In this document: piece after piece, positions 6,142 through 39,258 of the stretch
How positions within the stretch are numbered: the first letter of the stretch is position 1
Layout: each line of letters starts with the position of its first letter
Origin: Chloroflexota bacterium
Lineage (GTDB): Bacteria; Chloroflexota; Dehalococcoidia; Lucifugimonadales; Lucifugimonadaceae
DNA length: 64,000 nucleotides
Direction: 5' to 3'
NCBI GenBank assembly: GCA_013204545.1
Contig: JABMNN010000097.1
Span: forward strand, 1 to 64,000
Position numbers and translations under genes: made by a program
Notes under the pieces: generated by a model
Database searches by the model: none
What the model saw: the letters and a program-made list of their open reading frames with translations, nothing else
Told to the model about the DNA's origin: nothing

Positions 6142-7152
6142 TTATTCCTCAAGATCCAATAGGCTTACAAGACCGTTATGCCAGTCGTAGCCGTGGGGTC
6201 GACGTTCGGCGTTAATTGCCGGGCTAGACCAGTAATACAGCACAAGCGAACGAGCTGGGGAGTGGAATTCCTCCAACGTGTTACCAAAATAATCGGTGAG
6301 GCGCCCAAGATACTGACCCGACTCGACCATTTCGCCTTCTTTTATGGCGGGATGCCAAACTCCAGATTGTTCGGAATTTATCTGCGAACGATTGCCCTTC
6401 AGTAGTTTTTGGCGAGGTCGTGCAGGGCTGCCATCGAGCATTTTCATTGTTTGGAGGGCGGCGATATAGCCATCGAAGTGAGTTGCAGTGTCTGCTTCGG
6501 TCGGCACACCGTTCTTACCACACTCCACCCATATGTTAGCGATTCCAGCGTTGAGCAAAGCTACACAGAAAGGCGGAATGGAAGACAGTTCATGTCGAGG
6601 TTCGACGTATTCGACTTCGAACCCACGTGCCAGCTCAAGAGATCGACTACTCAATTCATTAGCACCTCGCATTGGTACCGGAACCCACGACATGAGCGAC
6701 TGCGCCATTTCGCCAGCATGAGAGTCTATTAAGTATTCAGAATCCTTCACTACATCGAACAGCGTGTCGATCAGCATATCGCTGTAGGTACCGCCGGGAT
6801 TTCCGGGTCTGATGAAGTGGACTTCCTTCTGATCGACCGGACTTAGCTGCATGTTGCGATCCATGAACGCTCGAGTCGAGATCACCGGAATCACCAGTAA
6901 TGTCCCTGATAATTCGTCAGCCTTCACATCTGAAATGAGTTTTTGGGCAGCAAGAATTCCCGAGTACTCACCAGCGTGCATGCCCGACATCACAGTCATT
7001 TGTGGTCCGGGTTTGGTGCCTTTAATGCGCGCCACTGGTATCTCGATAGTCTCACCCGAAGAGTGAGTACGTGTGACGGTCAGCTCTTCGAGGCCAGGGT
7101 CAGGTGACCAAGACCATGCGAGCTGCTCCAAATCGACTGTTCTCGGTTGCAT
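6142..7152 (-). CDS. Succinylglutamate desuccinylase/aspartoacylase family protein
   Basis: MTVMSGMHAGEYSGILAAQKL, IDSHAGE, NIWVECGKNG; 3 nt upstream of the M19 gene. Confidence 0.8.
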   Translation of the reverse strand: MQPRTVDLEQLAWSWSPDPGLEELTVTRTHSSGETIEIPVARIKGTKPGPQMTVMSGMHAGEYSGILAAQKLISDVKADELSGTLLVIPVISTRAFMDRNMQLSPVDQKEVHFIRPGNPGGTYSDMLIDTLFDVVKDSEYLIDSHAGEMAQSLMSWVPVPMRGANELSSRSLELARGFEVEYVEPRHELSSIPPFCVALLNAGIANIWVECGKNGVPTEADTATHFDGYIAALQTMKMLDGSPARPRQKLLKGNRSQINSEQSGVWHPAIKEGEMVESGQYLGRLTDYFGNTLEEFHSPARSLVLYYWSSPAINAERRPHGYDWHNGLVSLLDLEE

Positions 7153-7253
7153 TCGTGTCGGTTCTCCGTAGCGTTGCTAAACTTGCGCCGCCCAAGCATA
7201 AATCGTATGACGCGCTCGTGCATCCGTGCGATCCGCAATCACAAGGAACTCTC

Positions 7254-8423
7254 GTGAAAATCAAGTCCATCAAAGCAGTTCACGTAAAACTGCCTCAGCC
7301 ATCGCAAATCACGCCGTCACGTCGAGACTCTTGGAACAAGTCTGCGAAACGGGCAATGCCAGCGAACATGTACCCGGAATTTTCAGGCATGCCGGGCGAA
7401 ATGCCGGGTGGAGGACTTGATTCTGTTTGGGTGCAAGTAGTTGCCGAAGATGGAACTTGGGGACTCGGACAAGCCGCATTCGGCGAACCAGTGGCAGCGT
7501 TCGTAAATAATGTAATTGCTCCTATTTTGGAGGGGCGAAATTGCCTTGCTATCGAGCACCTGAACGACTTAATTCTTCGTGTTTCAAAGCGATTCGGAAC
7601 GTCGGGAACTGCCTCAACAGCCATGAGCGGAGTTGATCTCGGGCTTTGGGATCTCAAAGGTAAAATCTACGGGCTTCCCGTGTACTCGCTGCTCGGTGGA
7701 CCTGTTCGAGATTCGATCACCTGTTACGCGACTTCGGATGATCTCGATTGGTCACAAGAACTCGGATTCACCAAATTCAAGATCACCAATCCATCTCACT
7801 ACTCTGAAGGTGATGCGGGAATAAGGGCGGTTGTCGAGGATGTGGCACAGGCTCGCGAAAAAGTTGGTGCTGAACACGATCTCATGATTAATCCGGTGAT
7901 GTCGTACAACGTCGAATTCGCGCTCAGACTTCTTGAGCAGCTCAAGCCATACAACCTGCGCTGGTTCGAAGAGCCGCTCGTACCGACCGACACCGACGGG
8001 CTTGCCCATTTGCGAAGATCGGCTCCGTGGGTTGCCATCGCAACGGGTGAAGACCATCACGGTCGGCATGCGTTCCTCGATCTCGTCGAGAAGCGTGCTG
8101 TAGATATCTTGCAACCCGATCTCACATGGGGCGGCGGCATGACCGAGGTTATGAAAATTCACACCATCGGTGAAGCCGCCGGAATCGCAACGATTCCACA
8201 CGGTGGAGCGAACAATCCATTCGGACAGCACTTCGCCATGGCAGCCACTGAATCGCCAATGGCCGAATACTGGATGGGCACCGATCCGGGCGTTCCACTC
8301 GAAGAAACAATACGAATTCCCGGCACAGCCATTCCCGTGAACGGCAAAATTGTGCCTTCAAGCCAACCTGGATTCGGTATGGAGTTCGAGCCGAGCGATA
8401 TTTCAGATTGGGGGTCGAACTAG
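7254..8423 (+). CDS. Enolase superfamily protein, L-rhamnonate dehydratase-like
   Basis: GVDLGLWDLKGK, WFEEPLVPTD, ATGEDHHGR, DILQPDLTWGGGMTE, IPHGGANNPFGQHFA; likely GTG start at 7254 (MKIKSIKAVHVKLP) rather than the ORF start at 7104. Confidence 0.85.
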   Translation: MKIKSIKAVHVKLPQPSQITPSRRDSWNKSAKRAMPANMYPEFSGMPGEMPGGGLDSVWVQVVAEDGTWGLGQAAFGEPVAAFVNNVIAPILEGRNCLAIEHLNDLILRVSKRFGTSGTASTAMSGVDLGLWDLKGKIYGLPVYSLLGGPVRDSITCYATSDDLDWSQELGFTKFKITNPSHYSEGDAGIRAVVEDVAQAREKVGAEHDLMINPVMSYNVEFALRLLEQLKPYNLRWFEEPLVPTDTDGLAHLRRSAPWVAIATGEDHHGRHAFLDLVEKRAVDILQPDLTWGGGMTEVMKIHTIGEAAGIATIPHGGANNPFGQHFAMAATESPMAEYWMGTDPGVPLEETIRIPGTAIPVNGKIVPSSQPGFGMEFEPSDISDWGSN

Positions 8424-8424
8424 C

Positions 8425-9612
8425 ATGAAGATCAAAAGCGTTCGATGCGTGCAGATCAACAAACCTGCACCTCCCATCCGACCCAACACCAAGCCAGGCT
8501 GGAACACCTACGCGATTCGATCGCAGCCGATAGCTCGCTACTCCGAGTACATAAGGGTCGATGGCAACAAGCCGGGGCAGTCTGGAACAGCATGGGTTCA
8601 GATCACTGCTGAAGACGGAACGTTCGGACTCGGCTCATTTGCCCACGGATCTATGGGTGCTTCTGTGGTTGATTATTTGATTGCGCCTCTAATCGAAGGA
8701 AAAGACGTACTTGCGACAGAACTAATTAACGATCAAATCTGGCGAATGAACGAAGGTTTCCAAGGGGGAATTGCAACAGCCGCACAAAGCGGAGTCGATC
8801 TTGCTTTGTGGGACCTCAAAGGCAAGCTATTGGGTCGACCCGTCTACGAACTAATCGGCGGGCCTTCACGCGAACACGTAGAGCTATACGCAACGGGTGA
8901 CGACATCGAATGGATGCGCGAATTAGGCTTCAGTCGGTTCAAAATCAGCAATCCGTTTTTCTACGAGGAGGGCTCTGAAGGACTTTCCAAGCTAGAAGAC
9001 CACATCGCAAGCAAGCGTGAAATCGCCGGTGACGATGCTGAACTCACGTTTAATCCGGTTATGTCGTTTAATGCCGATATCGCTCTCAGGGTCGCCGAGC
9101 GACTCAGGCCTTACAACCTCCGTTGGTTCGAAGAACCGCTGTCACCGTGGGATCTTGAGGGTCACAAAGAACTCAAGCGCGCAATGACATGGACGGCGCT
9201 TGCAACAGGCGAGCACCACTACGGTCGAAAGCAGTTCCAGCAGCTAGTCGCCGCACGTGCGGTCGATATTGTTCAGCCAGATATTGAGTGGGCGGGTGGG
9301 CTTTCTGAAGTCCTCAAAATCTACACGTACGCCGAAGCTGCCGGAATCGAAACGATCACTCACATGGGCGCCAACACGGCTTGGGGCCAGCACTTTGCCT
9401 ACGCCATGCCGGAAACCACGCTCGCCGAGTGGTTCATGGATACAGACGTTGGACAGCCTTTAGCCGACAAACTAATGCCGGGTGTACCGGCACCAGTGGA
9501 TGGCAAGGTAGTGCCTTCTAACGCGCCGGGTTTCGGACTAGAAATCCCCGAAGATTGGATCGTACCGTGGGACTACGCAGACCAGAAACGAGCGGTGTAC
9601 GACGCGCCTTAG
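8425..9612 (+). CDS. Enolase superfamily protein, tandem paralog of the preceding gene
   Basis: GVDLALWDLKGKLLGRPVYELIGG, WFEEPLSPWD, ATGEHHYGR, DIVQPDIEWAGGLSE; ATG one base after the upstream stop codon. Confidence 0.87.
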   Translation: MKIKSVRCVQINKPAPPIRPNTKPGWNTYAIRSQPIARYSEYIRVDGNKPGQSGTAWVQITAEDGTFGLGSFAHGSMGASVVDYLIAPLIEGKDVLATELINDQIWRMNEGFQGGIATAAQSGVDLALWDLKGKLLGRPVYELIGGPSREHVELYATGDDIEWMRELGFSRFKISNPFFYEEGSEGLSKLEDHIASKREIAGDDAELTFNPVMSFNADIALRVAERLRPYNLRWFEEPLSPWDLEGHKELKRAMTWTALATGEHHYGRKQFQQLVAARAVDIVQPDIEWAGGLSEVLKIYTYAEAAGIETITHMGANTAWGQHFAYAMPETTLAEWFMDTDVGQPLADKLMPGVPAPVDGKVVPSNAPGFGLEIPEDWIVPWDYADQKRAVYDAP

Positions 9613-12962: not shown

Positions 12963-13988
12963 TTGAAAAGTGTGATGCCCAAACGGATGCTGGTTGTGGC
13001 GGGAATGCTCGCTCTGATAGTTCTGAGCGCGTGCCAAGCAGCTGGAAAGAATCCTGAAAACATAGCAATTCCGGTAATTCCACCAACCGTTGACATTTCC
13101 TTGTGCCAAAACGAATTCTATCCAGTGGGATCACCGGTTTTTGAAGATGTTTCACACGATCAACTCTTCGGATCCGCGGATGAGATCAAAATTCTTGACC
13201 TTGTGGTCGGTGAGGGTGATTCACCCAACATCGAAGACAAAGTAACCGTGAAATACACTGGCTGGCTCGATGGAGGTTGTGTTTTTGACTCTACCTACGC
13301 ACGTGGTGAAGATGCCAATCTTTTGCTTGTCACTCTGATTCCAGGGTGGCGACAGGCGATGGCCACGATGAAGCCCGGCGGTGTTCGCCGAGTCGAAATT
13401 CCGGCGCCCCTTGCCTACAAAGAGCTTGGTTCGCCCCCTGTTATTCCAGCAAACGCCACTTTGACCTTTCAGATTGAACTTGTAGACGTCTTAACACCCA
13501 GACAGGCCATTGCAACTGCTACTGCTATAGCAGCCAATGCCACAGCGACTCCAGTCCCTACAGCAACGCCCGAAGGAGGGCCAATAGTGTCTTGTGACAA
13601 CCCTGGTTACCCAGAATCTGCTCCACAATACGATGCTGTAACTGACGACCAGTACTCTGCCGAGCCATCTGGCATTCGTGTATTCGACTTGAAGGTCGGC
13701 GACGGCGGCACTGTTGACCCAAGCAACACGGTCGACGTGCACTACACCGGCTGGCTTGTTGCTGACGGATGTGTATTCGACTCTTCGTACTCACGTGGGG
13801 CGTCAGTTTCGTTCCCTGTTGGCGGCGTAATCCCTGGATTCCGTAACGCTATTCTCGGCATGAACGTTGGCGGACAGCGACGTGTATACATTCCAGCAGA
13901 TCAGGGCTACGGAGCTCAGGGCGCTGGCGGGGCAATTCCACCAAACGCCGATCTCGTATTCGACATCGTTCTCGACAGCGTTCGATAG
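12963..13988 (+). CDS. Lipoprotein with two tandem FKBP-type peptidyl-prolyl isomerase domains
   Basis: Lipobox VLSAC; two FKBP repeats (VKYTGWLDGGCVFDSTYARG..PGWRQAM and VHYTGWLVADGCVFDSSYSRG..GVIPGFRNAI..DQGYGAQGAGGAIPPNADLVFDIVL). Confidence 0.88.
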   Translation: MKSVMPKRMLVVAGMLALIVLSACQAAGKNPENIAIPVIPPTVDISLCQNEFYPVGSPVFEDVSHDQLFGSADEIKILDLVVGEGDSPNIEDKVTVKYTGWLDGGCVFDSTYARGEDANLLLVTLIPGWRQAMATMKPGGVRRVEIPAPLAYKELGSPPVIPANATLTFQIELVDVLTPRQAIATATAIAANATATPVPTATPEGGPIVSCDNPGYPESAPQYDAVTDDQYSAEPSGIRVFDLKVGDGGTVDPSNTVDVHYTGWLVADGCVFDSSYSRGASVSFPVGGVIPGFRNAILGMNVGGQRRVYIPADQGYGAQGAGGAIPPNADLVFDIVLDSVR

Positions 13989-14163: not shown

Positions 14164-15387
14164 ATGAAAATCACCAAAGTTGAAACTATCCACGTCGACG
14201 AGTTCTGGCAGATGTGCTGGGTTCGTGTACACACTGATTCGGGCGAGATCGGACTTGGTGAAACGTGGTATTTGCCCAAATCGGTAGCAGCGGTAGTTCA
14301 CGAAATATTTGGCCCAACACTGATAGGTCGAGACCCCATGGATCGCGAAGGCATCTGGGACGAACTATTCAAGCTCTCCGGGATTTTCACGTACTCAGGA
14401 GCCGAACTACGAGCGTTATCGGCAATCGACATCGCACTCTGGGACGTCGTGGGCCAAGCACTCGATCAGCCGATCTACAACCTGTTGGGTGGTAAATCTC
14501 GCGACAAAATACGCATCTACAACACAATCGGCAGTTATGGCGACTGGCAGGACAACGAGTTCGAGCAGCGCGACCCCGTGGGATTTCTTCAAAGCCTGAT
14601 CGACGAAGGAATTACCGCCGCAAAGGCGTACTACATGGCTCCCTACGCCGCCGAATCGGGCGGAAATTTCGTTTCAGCAAAGCAGATCAAAGAAGGACTC
14701 GCCCCCCTCGCTAAGCAACGCAAGGCATTGGGCGATCAGATCGAAATCGCCCATGACGGTGGTGGACAGTGGGCGTTGGCTCCAGCAATTCGCATCACGC
14801 AAGCGATGGACGAGTACGACCTGATGTGGCAGGAAGAGATGATTCATCCTGTGAACGTCGAGACGCATCTAAAACTTGCACAGGAAACGAAAACACCAAT
14901 CTGCGCTGCCGAACGACTCATGACTCGATACGAATTCCGTGAATACATCGAAAAAGGTGCAGCCGAAATCGTGATGCCTGATCTGATATGGACTGGCGGA
15001 ATTTCGGAGACGAAGAAGATCGCAACGATGGCCGATACCTATCAGACTCCAATCGCTCCACATGACTGGACGGGTCCGATCAACGTATTCGCCTGCGCTC
15101 ACATCTCGATGAACGTCCCGAACGTGATGATTCAGGAAACCAATCGTGCCTACTACCGGGGTTGGTACGACAAGTTCATTGAGCCGAATATCGTGATCAA
15201 GGACGGCTATTTACTTGCGCCCGAAGGACCCGGTCTGGGAACACGCCTGAAGGCCGACGTCTTCAACCGCTCCGACATTCACGTAGAAGAAACCACCGAG
15301 GCCCGAGTATGGGAGCCGGTCGGATTCAATGACCCCGGCCAAAAAGTAGCCAACTTCTTCTCGCCAAACGTGCCTGAAGGTAACTGA
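14164..15387 (+). CDS. Mandelate racemase/galactonate dehydratase-like enolase superfamily protein
   Basis: IEIAHDGGGQW (Asp ligand), MWQEEMIHP, AAERLMTRYEFREY, MPDLIWTGGISETKKIA, APHDWTGPINVFA. Confidence 0.87.
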   Translation: MKITKVETIHVDEFWQMCWVRVHTDSGEIGLGETWYLPKSVAAVVHEIFGPTLIGRDPMDREGIWDELFKLSGIFTYSGAELRALSAIDIALWDVVGQALDQPIYNLLGGKSRDKIRIYNTIGSYGDWQDNEFEQRDPVGFLQSLIDEGITAAKAYYMAPYAAESGGNFVSAKQIKEGLAPLAKQRKALGDQIEIAHDGGGQWALAPAIRITQAMDEYDLMWQEEMIHPVNVETHLKLAQETKTPICAAERLMTRYEFREYIEKGAAEIVMPDLIWTGGISETKKIATMADTYQTPIAPHDWTGPINVFACAHISMNVPNVMIQETNRAYYRGWYDKFIEPNIVIKDGYLLAPEGPGLGTRLKADVFNRSDIHVEETTEARVWEPVGFNDPGQKVANFFSPNVPEGN

Positions 15388-18184: not shown

Positions 18185-19336
18185 TTACGATCCGACTCCG
18201 CACGTTTGTAGTGCAGCAAGAACTTGGTCAGATATCTTAGAAAGATCACCTGAGCTTGTTGCGATCACGGCACTTGCGAGAGCAGACGAATCAAGTTCGG
18301 TTGAAAGGCAGGTGAGTTGTTCGATAGTTAGATCGCTAACAGGGATCGCGGTAGCAGTAGGTTCTGCCGCAGGTTCGACCGGAATTGGCACGGCACCATC
18401 TCCAATTCCACCATTTGGCTCAACTGGAATCGAGATTCCACCACCACATTTTTCAAGAGCAGCTTGGAACTCGGCTTGGGGGGCACCTGTTGGGTCGCCA
18501 AGCAGTGTCAGTGCGCCTTCTCCCAGTTCGGCGGTTATACACTCGCGGAAATCTCCGATACCGCCTGTTAATCCACCACGTGCACCGCCGCGTTGACCAC
18601 CACCAAAGATTCCACCACCGCCGAATCCACCCGCGTCTCCAACTGTAAATCCACATTTTTCGAATGCAGCGGTCGATTCCTCGGTAAGTCCAAGCCCGCT
18701 GCCTCTGCCTAGCTGGCTCAACGCATCTGCTCCGAGTTCATCGGTTATGCATTGGCGAATCTCAGGGTCAGCGATTCCGCTACCAACAAAGCCGCCGCCA
18801 CCGAATCCACCACCGTCTGGTCGGCGAGCCTGTTCGATGCCACACGCAGCGTACGCGGCGGTCAAGTCGTCAATGTTGGTGGTTCGAAGAATACCTCGAT
18901 CAAACTCACCTGACTCTAAGGTCACGTCCATCCCAAGTTCGCCTGCCAAACAAGCCTGAACAGCAGGGTCCGTGAAGTCGGTACGAGGAGCAAAGCCTGA
19001 AACAGCATCACCTGCATCAACTCCGCAAGAGTCGAGCATAGCGAGTTCTTGTGGTCCTAATCGCCCGAATAATTCAGGGCCGATCGCACCTGATTCGGGG
19101 TCGAAGTCGCCACCTAGTTGCTCGGTCAGACATTTCAGCACCTCGGGGTCAGCTAGTGCTTCTCTGATGCCCAACCCTGATGACGATTCATCACCAGCTA
19201 TCTGAGAGGCGACTGTAGGCACAGGTGTTGGTGGCTCAGCAGTTGGCTTCGTAGCAGCGGTGTCACACGCTGCAGCGACAATGGCAATCATGAGAGCGAA
19301 CGAGACCAGGATTGTGGTTCGTGAAATTCTAGGCAT
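18185..19336 (-). CDS. Lipoprotein with about five copies of a paired-Cys repeat and Gly-rich linkers; function unknown
   Basis: Lipobox-like ALMIAIVAAAC; repeats such as DPEVLKCLTEQLG..LDSCG, DPAVQACLAGELG..YAACG, DPEIRQCITDELG..FEKCG, IGDFRECITAELG..LEKCG, LTCLSTELD..LQTCG; likely start at internal Met (MPRISRTT). Confidence 0.7.
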   Translation of the reverse strand: MPRISRTTILVSFALMIAIVAAACDTAATKPTAEPPTPVPTVASQIAGDESSSGLGIREALADPEVLKCLTEQLGGDFDPESGAIGPELFGRLGPQELAMLDSCGVDAGDAVSGFAPRTDFTDPAVQACLAGELGMDVTLESGEFDRGILRTTNIDDLTAAYAACGIEQARRPDGGGFGGGGFVGSGIADPEIRQCITDELGADALSQLGRGSGLGLTEESTAAFEKCGFTVGDAGGFGGGGIFGGGQRGGARGGLTGGIGDFRECITAELGEGALTLLGDPTGAPQAEFQAALEKCGGGISIPVEPNGGIGDGAVPIPVEPAAEPTATAIPVSDLTIEQLTCLSTELDSSALASAVIATSSGDLSKISDQVLAALQTCGVGS

Positions 19337-19484
19337 GGTGACTATTCGGGTTCCAAGAAACAAATATCGATCCGACAACGGTGCGCCGTAGGTTCGCGTG
19401 AACTAAGTACATTGATAATCACGGAAGGATCATTTTGAACATGCTAATCGTTAGGTGTTTAGGAAATGTGAAGATACGATTTTC

Positions 19485-20657
19485 TCATTGAAGTACGTTG
19501 AGTAAATCGGCACAGGCTTCGAGAGATTCGAGAGTCTCCTTGCCCTGACACATCAGCACCATGTTCCCAGCGACAACGTAGTCGTAATATTTCGGGAATC
19601 CGCACCGACCGACAGGATGATCACCGTTGGAATCGCAACGACGTCTCTCAGCAAGGCCTTCTTGCCAGCGTTGATCATCTGGGTATAACGAAACGCCAGT
19701 CCCCGTGGCTTCGTTCGCAAATTCAACACCTGCTGTTATCGCCGAATCATGAGAAAAGTAGAACCGCGCTTCATATTCGAGTCGTCTGTATGGATCGGCA
19801 CCGTAGAAACCGTAGTGAGCTGCACTTGCCTCATCAAGGTCTTGCACGTCGTAGGTCTTTGACTTTTTGAAACCGGCAGATTCGAGATCAGAAATAGTGT
19901 ACTTCCGTTCTGTGTCTTCAATTCTGGCGATCATGCCATCGACCGACATTCCAATACCGCAAGCATCAACCGCGCTAGAAAATTCCACTAGTATCTCGCC
20001 GCCAAGAAACTCGCCATAGCCATCGGCGAACGACTCTCCTAACTCTTTGACCATGCATTGCTCGTTTTGAGACGAACGGCTACCTGAATATTCGGCATCG
20101 CCGCTATCGTCACCTGAATTTACTCTTGAGAGTGCAGCCAACTCGTCTTGAGTCAGGCAAAGCACAAATTCCTGGATCGCCAGCTGCGCGGGCTGACTTT
20201 GTTCATCGTCGTCACCAATAACAAGATCAGCAAGCACTCCCGCCGGTAGATCACCTAACAGTGAGGCCGCACATGCCATCGATGATCCGCTAAACGTACC
20301 CAGTTCGCCTTGAATTTGACCCGCCAGAAAGCCAACTACAAATTCGTTCGAGAAGCATCCTGACATGATGTCGTTCTCGGCAACACTCAACTCGATCTCA
20401 CCGGTAGCGAGTTCTTTAAGTCGCCCCTCGCCAAGCTCTCTTGTCAGACATTCAATATCTGCATCAGGCATTTGGGCGACGAATGCGTCGAAATTCAGCA
20501 CGGGCGACTCCGTGATTATCGCAATAGCAGGCGTGGGAGTCGGAGCCGGAGTGGATGTTGGCGGCACAGCAGTCGGCTCTGCCACAGCACTCTCGCACGC
20601 GCCGAACACGACGGCCATTAGTAGAACGAATGAGATCAGAAATGAGCTGCGATTCAC
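19485..20657 (-). CDS. Lipoprotein sharing the paired-Cys repeat, with a distinct C-terminal region
   Basis: Lipobox VVFGAC; ECLTRELGEGRLKELATGE..SGC, ACAASLLGDLPAGVLADL..LC, QCMVKELGESFADGYGEFLGGE..DACG. Confidence 0.7.
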   Translation of the reverse strand: MNRSSFLISFVLLMAVVFGACESAVAEPTAVPPTSTPAPTPTPAIAIITESPVLNFDAFVAQMPDADIECLTRELGEGRLKELATGEIELSVAENDIMSGCFSNEFVVGFLAGQIQGELGTFSGSSMACAASLLGDLPAGVLADLVIGDDDEQSQPAQLAIQEFVLCLTQDELAALSRVNSGDDSGDAEYSGSRSSQNEQCMVKELGESFADGYGEFLGGEILVEFSSAVDACGIGMSVDGMIARIEDTERKYTISDLESAGFKKSKTYDVQDLDEASAAHYGFYGADPYRRLEYEARFYFSHDSAITAGVEFANEATGTGVSLYPDDQRWQEGLAERRRCDSNGDHPVGRCGFPKYYDYVVAGNMVLMCQGKETLESLEACADLLNVLQ

Positions 20658-35937: not shown

Positions 35938-38900
35938 TTAGGGCGACCTAACGGCAACCGCCAATTCGGTTCGCCTGACAGTAATCGCGTAAGAAGATGT
36001 TATCCAGATAACTGAGACGATTAGCAAGCCTACGAAACCGATCAAGTAAGTCCAATCCGTCGAACTAACAATGGTCGGCAATACACGACCTTCAGCAAAT
36101 GTCTGAGTGGTCGCATCTACTGAGAGCCGGGCCATTAACAGGCCTACGATCACTCCGCCCACAACACCTGTGAACAAAACAACAAGTTGCTCACCAATAC
36201 TGACGACTGTTAACTCGAGACGACTCATTCCTAGACAGCTCAACACCGCCAGATTGTACCGATCTCCGGTTGGTCTGATTGCACTAAAAGCAAGAAATCC
36301 AAACGTCCCGAGCAACATCGCAACCACTGTTGTCACTATCGCTGAACCGCGCCAACCTGACACCGCCAATGGAGACACGAGTGAAGAATCAAGTAATTCT
36401 TGTCGACTAATCAAATTGTGGATCCCGGCAATTTCCTCGGACACTTCAGAGATCACAGATTGATCATTCGGATCGTCAAGCCCAATGAATAGTTCGGATA
36501 AAAATCCCGCTGAGTTAGCGCTACTCATCGACAAATAGGTCCAAAGCTGATTCGCATCTGCCACAACGAACCCACCCTTGCCGGGATCAATCGTCGGAAA
36601 ATACTCAAGCTCGCCGACGATGCGGGCAGGAATAGACTGCTCAAAAACGTTCAACACAGTTCGATCTCCCACCGAACTTCCGTTTACGATCAAAGCTTCA
36701 CGGCTAAACAAAACTGGAACGGCATCGGTAGAAGTCCGAATTACACCGCGAAACCCTTTATTAGTTCCTACGCCTAGATCGATCAATAAACCCTGACTGA
36801 TTTGTGAACCTCGAAGTTCCTCGAATCCTTCGACCGCCGTATCGATGCCCTTAACGGACGCCAGGGGTAGCCAATTTTCGACGATATCGAGTGAATCGAC
36901 AGTTGTTACTACGCCGGAAGCTACTTCCCCATCAACTTTTGCGTTGCCGGAAACTATCGCATCGACATAGATGCTCATCGGGATGCCGAGTTCGTCGTTC
37001 GTCTGTTCAAAAAATATAATCCCGACGACATCCACCGGTTTGGTAGCCTGTTCCGGCACATCGTTCATCCGAAGCTCCCATTCAGTGGAGTCCATTCGTC
37101 CGAGATTGACAGACCAAGAACGACCCGCTGCGTCCATCAATCGCAAGCTCGCTCGAACATATTCCTGACTTGAGCTCGCTTTTACTCTCAATCCAACATG
37201 AGTCGAATTGATGGCGAGCGGCATCGGAAGCAAGCTAGAATCCAGATCAGATTCTGGCTCTAAGACGAGTAGAAGTTCCTTGAGTGGTTCTGTGGAGTAA
37301 TCATTACGAAATATTCCAATACCTGCGAATTCGGCCGGTTCGACCGCAAGGAAATCGAATGGAGGGCCTTCCCCACCGTCGCGCATCGAACCGATGGCCC
37401 TGAGGCCAAGAGATGCTCCACTGACACCTTCAATGTTTCGGACGTTCTCGATAACTTCGGTTCTGGTCCCACTGTAGAAATCGACTGGAACCGCTCGAAT
37501 GTCGGAGCCGGATTGATACCCGGATTGATCGACGGCACTTTGCTCCAAGGTCCCGGCCACAGTACTCGAAAGAATTAGCGCTCCAGTTGCCGTAGCAACG
37601 ATCGCTATAGGCCATGCATAACTGACCCGCAATCTCGCGAGTGTGGCCGACAAAATATGTACCCCCGCAGGACCGCGCTTTGAGAGACCGCTCGAAATTA
37701 ATCGAGCAATCAAAGGCATCACTCGCAGAGAAACCAATATGGTCACTCCGAGAAATATGGCAGGGGAGAACACCAACAGAGGACTAATATCTGCGAGATG
37801 AGTTGCACCACCTACGACAACTGACTCCTCGGTAGTTAGATCCCAAAGAACAATCCCGCCAAACAACAAGAGGATCAGATCGAGATAGTGTCGTTGATAC
37901 CCGGGTTGTCCTTCAACGCGAGTCCCATTCAAGCGCCCAGAATCAATCGCTAGTAGTGCACCAGAGTTTGCCATCCACTGAATGAACAATAGAACAGCAA
38001 ATCCGCCGGTCAGCGACAATGCAAACGACTGCCAGACTATTCGAACCGGCATCCCCATTCCTAGCGTGATCGCCTCGTATTCAGAAAGATGCCCTATCGA
38101 CAAAATGATGCCTGCTGCCACAAAAGGGGACAACAAAGCTGGGATCAACACTATTGGAGCTGTTTCGTACAGGTAAGCTACCGCTATATGCGAACGGTCC
38201 GAGCCGCGTGCCCGCAATCGCCCCATGTCGACACGCCGTCGCGCTATCAACGCACCAACAGACGTAATCGAAAAAAATCCCGCAGCAACCAACACCACTC
38301 CGCCCATCATCAACGTCGGAATACGAGCGAAAGTGATTTGCTCACGTAATGCACTGAAACGGTTCGGGATAGGCGAAATCACGTCCGACTCTGGGAACTC
38401 CGATCGCAAGCTCCTTGCCACAGCTTCAATTTGCCACTCGGTCGCAGCTGGACCCTGATCATTGATTTGGTTGAAGTCTAGCTCTACTAGCCATCTGGCA
38501 GATCCGATTGATGCAGGCCCGCCGGTCACCAGATCGAACTGACTCTCACCAGCTACAAACAATGGCAGCGGGTGTCTGGCAATCAGTGATGGCGCAGGGG
38601 GCTCTGTCGCCTCAAATCCTAAATCGAACCAAAACTCATCAGTCAAATCAATCGGGTTGAACCTCCCGACAACTTTTAGCCTCAAATATGCTGGGTCGGC
38701 GGGGTTTGATGCCAACCAAATATCGTCGCCTACATTTACTCCGAGGATTTCAGCTCTTTTATATGGAACTGCCGTTTCACCAACCACAATTCCATTTTCG
38801 ATTTGTGTATCCGATACAGGTACTCGTCCTTCTACGAAATCAACATGATCCGAAAATCCCTCGAATCGTTGAAGAACAGCGCTATCAGAAGAACGACCGG

Positions 38901-39258
38901 GGATTATTGAGTCACGATCAAGTCCCCAATAGTGAAGTCGAGTATGAGACTCCTGAGTGACCGCAATCGGCAGGCTTCCGAGTTCCTCAAGCGAGATATT
39001 AATTCGATCGGTAGCAGCTGAAATCGAGCGCGATGTAAGAGGAAAATTATCGACTGAAATTTGAAGGTTTCTGTTCGATAGTGAGATCGTGGTAAGTACC
39101 GAACGCAACCCCAACGATTCAATAGTGTTGAGGTAAATAGGTGCTCCGGCAAGAATTGTCGTCAGGAACAGCACGCTGACCGCAAGCGTGAAAACCTGAG
39201 TGATATCAACCAGCGGATTTCGGCGAACTAGAATCAATCCGTGATACGTCCGATCCAA
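35938..39258 (-). CDS. Large ABC transporter permease-like protein, FtsX/MacB type
   Basis: 1106 aa, N-terminal TM, large extracellular segments, FtsX-like motifs IVTTVVAMLLGTFGFLAFSAIRPTGDRYNLAVLSCLGMSRLELTVVSIGEQLVVLFTGVVGGVIVGLLMARL. Confidence 0.8.
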   Translation of the reverse strand: MDRTYHGLILVRRNPLVDITQVFTLAVSVLFLTTILAGAPIYLNTIESLGLRSVLTTISLSNRNLQISVDNFPLTSRSISAATDRINISLEELGSLPIAVTQESHTRLHYWGLDRDSIIPGRSSDSAVLQRFEGFSDHVDFVEGRVPVSDTQIENGIVVGETAVPYKRAEILGVNVGDDIWLASNPADPAYLRLKVVGRFNPIDLTDEFWFDLGFEATEPPAPSLIARHPLPLFVAGESQFDLVTGGPASIGSARWLVELDFNQINDQGPAATEWQIEAVARSLRSEFPESDVISPIPNRFSALREQITFARIPTLMMGGVVLVAAGFFSITSVGALIARRRVDMGRLRARGSDRSHIAVAYLYETAPIVLIPALLSPFVAAGIILSIGHLSEYEAITLGMGMPVRIVWQSFALSLTGGFAVLLFIQWMANSGALLAIDSGRLNGTRVEGQPGYQRHYLDLILLLFGGIVLWDLTTEESVVVGGATHLADISPLLVFSPAIFLGVTILVSLRVMPLIARLISSGLSKRGPAGVHILSATLARLRVSYAWPIAIVATATGALILSSTVAGTLEQSAVDQSGYQSGSDIRAVPVDFYSGTRTEVIENVRNIEGVSGASLGLRAIGSMRDGGEGPPFDFLAVEPAEFAGIGIFRNDYSTEPLKELLLVLEPESDLDSSLLPMPLAINSTHVGLRVKASSSQEYVRASLRLMDAAGRSWSVNLGRMDSTEWELRMNDVPEQATKPVDVVGIIFFEQTNDELGIPMSIYVDAIVSGNAKVDGEVASGVVTTVDSLDIVENWLPLASVKGIDTAVEGFEELRGSQISQGLLIDLGVGTNKGFRGVIRTSTDAVPVLFSREALIVNGSSVGDRTVLNVFEQSIPARIVGELEYFPTIDPGKGGFVVADANQLWTYLSMSSANSAGFLSELFIGLDDPNDQSVISEVSEEIAGIHNLISRQELLDSSLVSPLAVSGWRGSAIVTTVVAMLLGTFGFLAFSAIRPTGDRYNLAVLSCLGMSRLELTVVSIGEQLVVLFTGVVGGVIVGLLMARLSVDATTQTFAEGRVLPTIVSSTDWTYLIGFVGLLIVSVIWITSSYAITVRRTELAVAVRSP

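Follow-up and report, generated by a model that had tools for sequence, protein, structure and literature searches.

A paired-cysteine helical repeat in two adjacent lipoprotein genes of a SAR202-type Chloroflexota bacterium

The Hcp proteins of Helicobacter, built of Sel1-like repeats, are what we take to be the closest working analogue of the proteins discussed here: secreted or surface-located helical repeats with one disulfide per unit. The paired Cys of Hcp lie about eight residues apart in repeats of 36 residues; in the present proteins, the spacing is 31-38 residues. Hcp repeats stack as a solenoid, whereas the repeats, or beads, of the first protein described below are predicted to be separated by disordered linkers. 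In a Pfam scan up to E 10, the Sel1 profile matched neither protein. Within the Chloroflexota, a set of unnamed paired-Cys lipoproteins (L071 on contig C71 of genome G000, L062, L064, L069, L125, and L124) resembles both proteins in Cys spacing, in an LG-like motif after the first Cys, in a similar helical module and, in most cases, in the lipobox. These relatives differ in bead number, arrangement, and partner domains (PQQ_2/LRR, PPC, or S8). The literature search returned nothing on a repeat of this kind.

The host setting bears on where such proteins would act. Cultivated SAR202 bacteria named 'Candidatus Lucifugimonas marina' are monoderm, do not carry genes for peptidoglycan synthesis, and have an S-layer-like coat (PMC10444878); in a cell of this type, lipoproteins would therefore face the outside directly. 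The window, that is, the whole stretch of 64,000 nucleotides analysed here, has a G+C content of about 51%. By inspection, it carries three enolase/mandelate-racemase-like genes (7104-8423, 8350-9612, and 14164-15387, plus strand), which fit reported SAR202 enzyme-paralogue expansions. It also carries a lipoprotein-like open reading frame with two halves resembling FKBP-type peptidyl-prolyl isomerases (12963-13988, plus strand, by inspection), a possible folding helper for exported proteins.

The two genes of interest, P0001 and P0002, contain the following features.

18185-19336, minus strand: P0001, five-repeat lipoprotein gene, 383 residues (open reading frame list; orthologues across the genus)
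18191-18334, minus strand: P0001 terminal repeat R5, C343-C379, residues 335-382, 61 bits; the best-conserved bead
18335-18436, minus strand: conserved Pro/Gly linker before R5 of P0001; 72% mean identity across the genus, yet predicted disordered
18437-18565, minus strand: P0001 repeat R4, C266-C297, residues 258-300, 45 bits
18644-18775, minus strand: P0001 repeat R3, C196-C228, residues 188-231, 50 bits
18833-18976, minus strand: P0001 repeat R2, C129-C165, residues 121-168, 36 bits
19016-19156, minus strand: P0001 repeat R1, C69-C104, residues 61-107, 48 bits
19265-19336, minus strand: P0001 signal peptide and lipobox-like Cys24 (sequence; helix 7-24 predicted by AlphaFold2)
19485-20657, minus strand: P0002, lipoprotein gene with three paired-Cys repeats and DUF6810, 390 residues, GTG start
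19491-19898, minus strand: P0002 DUF6810 domain (PF20650), residues 254-389, with four invariant Cys; 147 bits, E 3.7e-43
19953-20081, minus strand: P0002 repeat R3, C201-C233; 17.0 bits against a shuffle maximum of 7.0
20151-20474, minus strand: P0002 predicted four-Cys helical domain, R1 plus R2 (C70, C101, C129, C167); Cys invariant, pLDDT mostly 65-90
20595-20657, minus strand: P0002 signal peptide and lipobox-like Cys21 (sequence)

A preliminary description of this DNA had placed two lipoprotein genes on one strand here, and both reading frames lie where it put them. The strand is the minus strand, so what it called the next gene, P0002, is the upstream member of the pair, separated from P0001 by 148 bases. 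Scans for promoters and terminators at the pair gave no signal above chance. The signal and lipobox starts claimed for both proteins are borne out: read by eye, each sequence begins with a hydrophobic helix that ends in a lipobox Cys, as in bacterial lipoproteins, and this Cys is invariant among the aligned homologues (Cys24 in alignment A2; Cys21 in alignments A3 and A6). In P0001, the signal peptide and Cys24 are followed by a Pro/Thr linker and then the five repeats; in P0002, by the same order, Cys21 and a Pro/Thr linker lead into three Cys pairs and a C-terminal DUF6810 domain.

Five paired-Cys segments had been read in P0001, and exactly five units are present, with Cys-Cys distances of 35, 36, 32, 31, and 36 from R1 to R5. 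A hidden Markov model built from 45 repeats of P0001 homologues, with the window sequence excluded, scores all five at 36-61 bits. Among orthologues, mean identity is 78% in R5, 72% in the preceding linker, and 47-56% in R2-R4; R1 is absent from several to most of them. Repeats inside one protein average only about 32% identity, against 78% for the terminal repeat between species, which indicates that the array predates the genus. The proposed origin of the array by repeat duplication holds up as well: repeat number varies, and a recent duplication is visible in L040, where R1 and R2 are 80% identical. In L043, the Cys of one repeat are both retained although a long Gly/Asp/Arg insertion separates them, which fits a loop within a stapled unit. 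The roughly three copies proposed for P0002 are likewise found, as Cys pairs 70/101, 129/167, and 201/233 (distances of 31, 38, and 32).

The C-terminal part of P0002 had been set apart as a different region. Different it is, but it can be named: it belongs to Pfam DUF6810, with 147.2 bits against a cut-off of 25 and profile positions 1-139 of 141 covered. The invariant DUF6810 Cys in P0002 homologues are C341, C352, C370, and C382. The domain is absent from P0001, which has zero Pfam matches up to E 10. Both this genome and its genus hold many paralogous lipoproteins with DUF6810. The literature search found no paper on the domain. Most copies, unlike P0002, are short stand-alone proteins without paired-Cys repeats; among the proteins examined, only P0002 and its orthologues combine DUF6810 with the paired-Cys module. 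The expansion is strong, with 18 matches in G000 (contigs C48, C99, C22, C128, with L147, C114, and others); most genomes of the genus have about 8-14 P0002-like matches, and the genes, which are short, frequently stand in tandem arrays. DUF6810 also occurs within long frames in G001, G008, and G011. A gene of G002 (L142:3-4061) carries two DUF6810 copies and ankyrin-like repeats, apparently inserted in an extracytoplasmic loop of an FtsX/MacB-like permease (permease and ankyrin identities by inspection). The window itself encodes a large FtsX/MacB-like permease without DUF6810 (35938-39258, minus strand, 1106 residues, by inspection), apparently of the same general type.

Cys were expected to occur in pairs, and their counts agree. 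Beyond the lipobox Cys, every aligned P0001 homologue has 8 or 10 Cys and every P0002 homologue has 10, so that the number after the lipobox is even in 12/12 and 9/9 homologues, respectively; gain or loss of repeats always shifts the count by two. In the wider family, the count is even in 16/17 proteins. The exception, L070, has an extra Cys ahead of its apparent start Met, and the figure is 17/17 once this residue is set aside; the 17 proteins are not all independent, and parity counts as support rather than as a probability. Each repeat has two invariant Cys about 31-38 residues apart, Leu/Gly after the first helix, and a place in a protein with an even Cys count. Across the family, nothing persists but the two Cys and an almost invariant Gly that follows helix 1.

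AlphaFold2 models, built on thin alignments (12 sequences for P0001, 18 for P0002), suggest how these units fold. In the P0001 family, the first helix of each repeat holds Cys1, the last helix ends at Cys2, and most repeats have a short middle helix. Confidence is about 70-90 pLDDT in the repeats and mostly below 50 in the linkers (overall pTM 0.28), reaching 84-91 over most of R5; this contrast supports the suggestion of beads on flexible linkers. The idea of one helical hairpin per repeat survives in part, in that the module is helical and the models predict three short helices rather than two. Structure prediction, proposed earlier as a check, returned repeated ordered beads, with one departure: R1 and R2 of P0002 do not appear as separate beads, since residues 50-180 form one ordered block (pLDDT about 65-90; pTM 0.39; the model excludes the DUF6810 part). 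In this model, R1 and R2 together resemble a single compact domain with four Cys (C70-C167). The paired Cys very probably form disulfides within the predicted helical beads.

The preliminary description recognised no named domain for the repeat, and a match to a known family would have overturned its novelty. Scans of Pfam, NCBIfam, and PHROGs gave no credible family, PDB sequence searches gave no significant match, and Foldseek against PDB gave none at E <= 0.001 (with whole-protein models of moderate quality, so that a single-bead match could be missed). Weak matches to UL42, spanin, Gp45_2, and toxin-antitoxin components were rejected, as their source was either Pro-rich N-termini or the motif repeated in L069/L070; EF-hand proteins among the weak Foldseek matches (prob up to 0.14) were not accepted as evidence. 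Searches of plasmids for the module found none.

Besides this genome, 12 genomes of the genus carry a P0001 orthologue, in one case a contig-edge fragment, and no full-length match was found outside the genus. Wherever a contig covers the locus, the order leuS, a pyridoxamine oxidase-like gene, P0002, P0001, alcohol dehydrogenase is conserved. Several genomes of the genus do not have P0001, and G001 and G009 keep P0001 with P0002 missing at the locus; the pair is therefore neither essential nor obligatory. Identity is about 44-63% for P0001 (full-length pairs) and 47-69% for P0002, against 82-97% for the alcohol dehydrogenase and 78-91% for LeuS. L035 and L037, the closest pair, give dN/dS values of about 0.17 (P0001), about 0.15 (P0002), and 0.04 (alcohol dehydrogenase). 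Judged by these sequence comparisons, P0001 and P0002 are real genes under relaxed yet purifying constraint, diverging faster than their neighbours. Four copies look broken or decaying, with assembly error as a possible cause: P0002 of G008 (L033) has in-frame stops, the gene of G025 (L047) has one in-frame TAG, only a remnant of P0002 is present in G005 (L146), and the P0001 fragment of G015 (L044) reads Tyr at one repeat Cys.

Beyond the locus, a search of the whole genome with the repeat profile found only P0001, P0002, a third lipoprotein on contig C71, and one chance-level match. A profile made from the repeats of P0002 found relatives elsewhere in the class, and two broader profiles found more across the phylum Chloroflexota. 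The module comes in two arrangements. One consists of single beads on linkers, as in P0001, L069/L070 (seven similar beads), and L134. The other is a compact four-Cys domain, as in P0002, the C71 protein, L060, L062, L064, and L068; it is often duplicated, with a spacing of roughly C-x30-34-C-x27-C-x31-45-C in which the middle distance is almost fixed, and its four Cys do not vary within the class, even at 16-25% identity. The module is fused, among others, to a PQQ-type propeller with LRRs in L124, to PPC domains in L125, and to a subtilase S8 domain in L065; L128 and L129 carry the module in membrane-type proteins with a hydrophobic C-terminus (by inspection). On this comparative evidence, the paired-Cys repeat is an undescribed, phylum-wide extracytoplasmic module of a familiar kind, that of disulfide-stabilised helical repeats.

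These features suggest the following picture. P0001 and P0002 would be lipid-anchored at the outer surface of a SAR202-type, monoderm cell. Each bead would fold as three short helices within about 45 residues, a mini-domain whose first helix holds Cys1 in a C(L/I)xxxLG motif and whose last helix ends at Cys2 in AxxxCG; a Cys1-Cys2 disulfide would staple the bead shut, and a large hydrophobic core would not be needed. In P0001, five beads would be strung along Gly-rich and Pro/Thr linkers; the inner ones, variable in number and sequence, would serve as a spacer, and R5 with its conserved linker may dock to a partner or ligand. In P0002, the four-Cys domain formed from two repeats, together with the third repeat, would hold DUF6810 away from the membrane. 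Read loosely, with the disulfide-stapled helical bead acting in surface lipoproteins as a robust unit for spacing and interaction, this explanation as a whole is one we lean towards; a division into spacer and head, as a function, is more tentative and falls somewhat short of probable.

Whether the two proteins share a repeat at all must be weighed against convergence between Cys-rich lipoproteins of similar composition. R2 of P0002 has no match to the P0001-homologue model and R1 matches it weakly, as convergence would have it. However, R3 (17.0 bits) and R1 (8.2 bits) both exceed the maximum of 1000 P0002 shuffles, the A5 profile recovers R3 at E 1e-4 in a search of the whole genome, and R2 is recognisable through the wider family. 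In addition, a single frame in G025 (L047, with one in-frame TAG) joins a P0002-type four-Cys part to a P0001-type terminal repeat, which scores 18.7 bits (shuffle maximum 12.7); the modules of both window genes thus belong to one common type of lipoprotein architecture. Convergence is thus very improbable, and the earlier view of one family stands. Its companion claim, plain gene duplication, fares less well: since this one-gene relative has both kinds of part, module exchange or splitting is at least as likely an origin of P0001 and P0002.

The remaining alternatives concern function. If each bead were an independent binding site for scavenging organic molecules, peptides, or metal, as in avidity receptors, the fast divergence at a fixed locus (about 44-69% identity against mostly 80-97% in the neighbours), the acidic and variable loops between the Cys, and the varying repeat number would all be natural; yet no polar site is common to all beads, and the persistence of two Cys and a Gly suggests that what the beads have in common is a scaffold and not a site, which leaves this reading unlikely. 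Somewhat less likely still is that the proteins are subunits of an S-layer-like coat, polymerising or cross-linking via their beads and not binding a diffusible ligand. They are surface-anchored and repetitive, with Gly-rich linkers, and a related SAR202 isolate has such a coat and no peptidoglycan genes (PMC10444878). Against this, P0001 is absent from several genomes of the genus and P0002 has been lost in some. S-layer proteins are usually far larger and near-universal within a lineage. The strict conservation of the Cys could also mark a redox or metal centre, cycling between dithiol and disulfide or binding metal in place of a permanent staple. We rejected this reading as highly implausible, as conserved ligands are absent: the Cys are 31-38 residues apart, neither a CxxC nor a conserved His or further metal ligand lies near them, the proteins are extracytoplasmic, and no thioredoxin-like or haem family was matched in Pfam or NCBIfam.

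The stapled bead as spacer and interaction unit has consequences beyond this locus. The ocean harbours SAR202 bacteria and their relatives in abundance, and a large share of their surface proteins has no name. A profile of the module would tie together, phylum-wide, many lipoproteins called 'hypothetical' and many multidomain surface proteins, and its definition makes surface-protein architecture testable in cultivated SAR202 strains; the result is of interest in annotation and in the study of the SAR202 cell surface, and is unsurprising in principle. With its 45 or so residues and one disulfide, the bead is also a possible compact scaffold of practical interest. We consider it quite possible, if short of probable, that this undescribed Chloroflexota-wide extracellular module, whether in its single-bead or its compact four-Cys form, acts as a general connector, stapled by disulfides, for surface receptors and display enzymes. 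If so, the connector would serve cells without peptidoglycan too, in a role like that of Ig-like, FN3, and SLH modules elsewhere.
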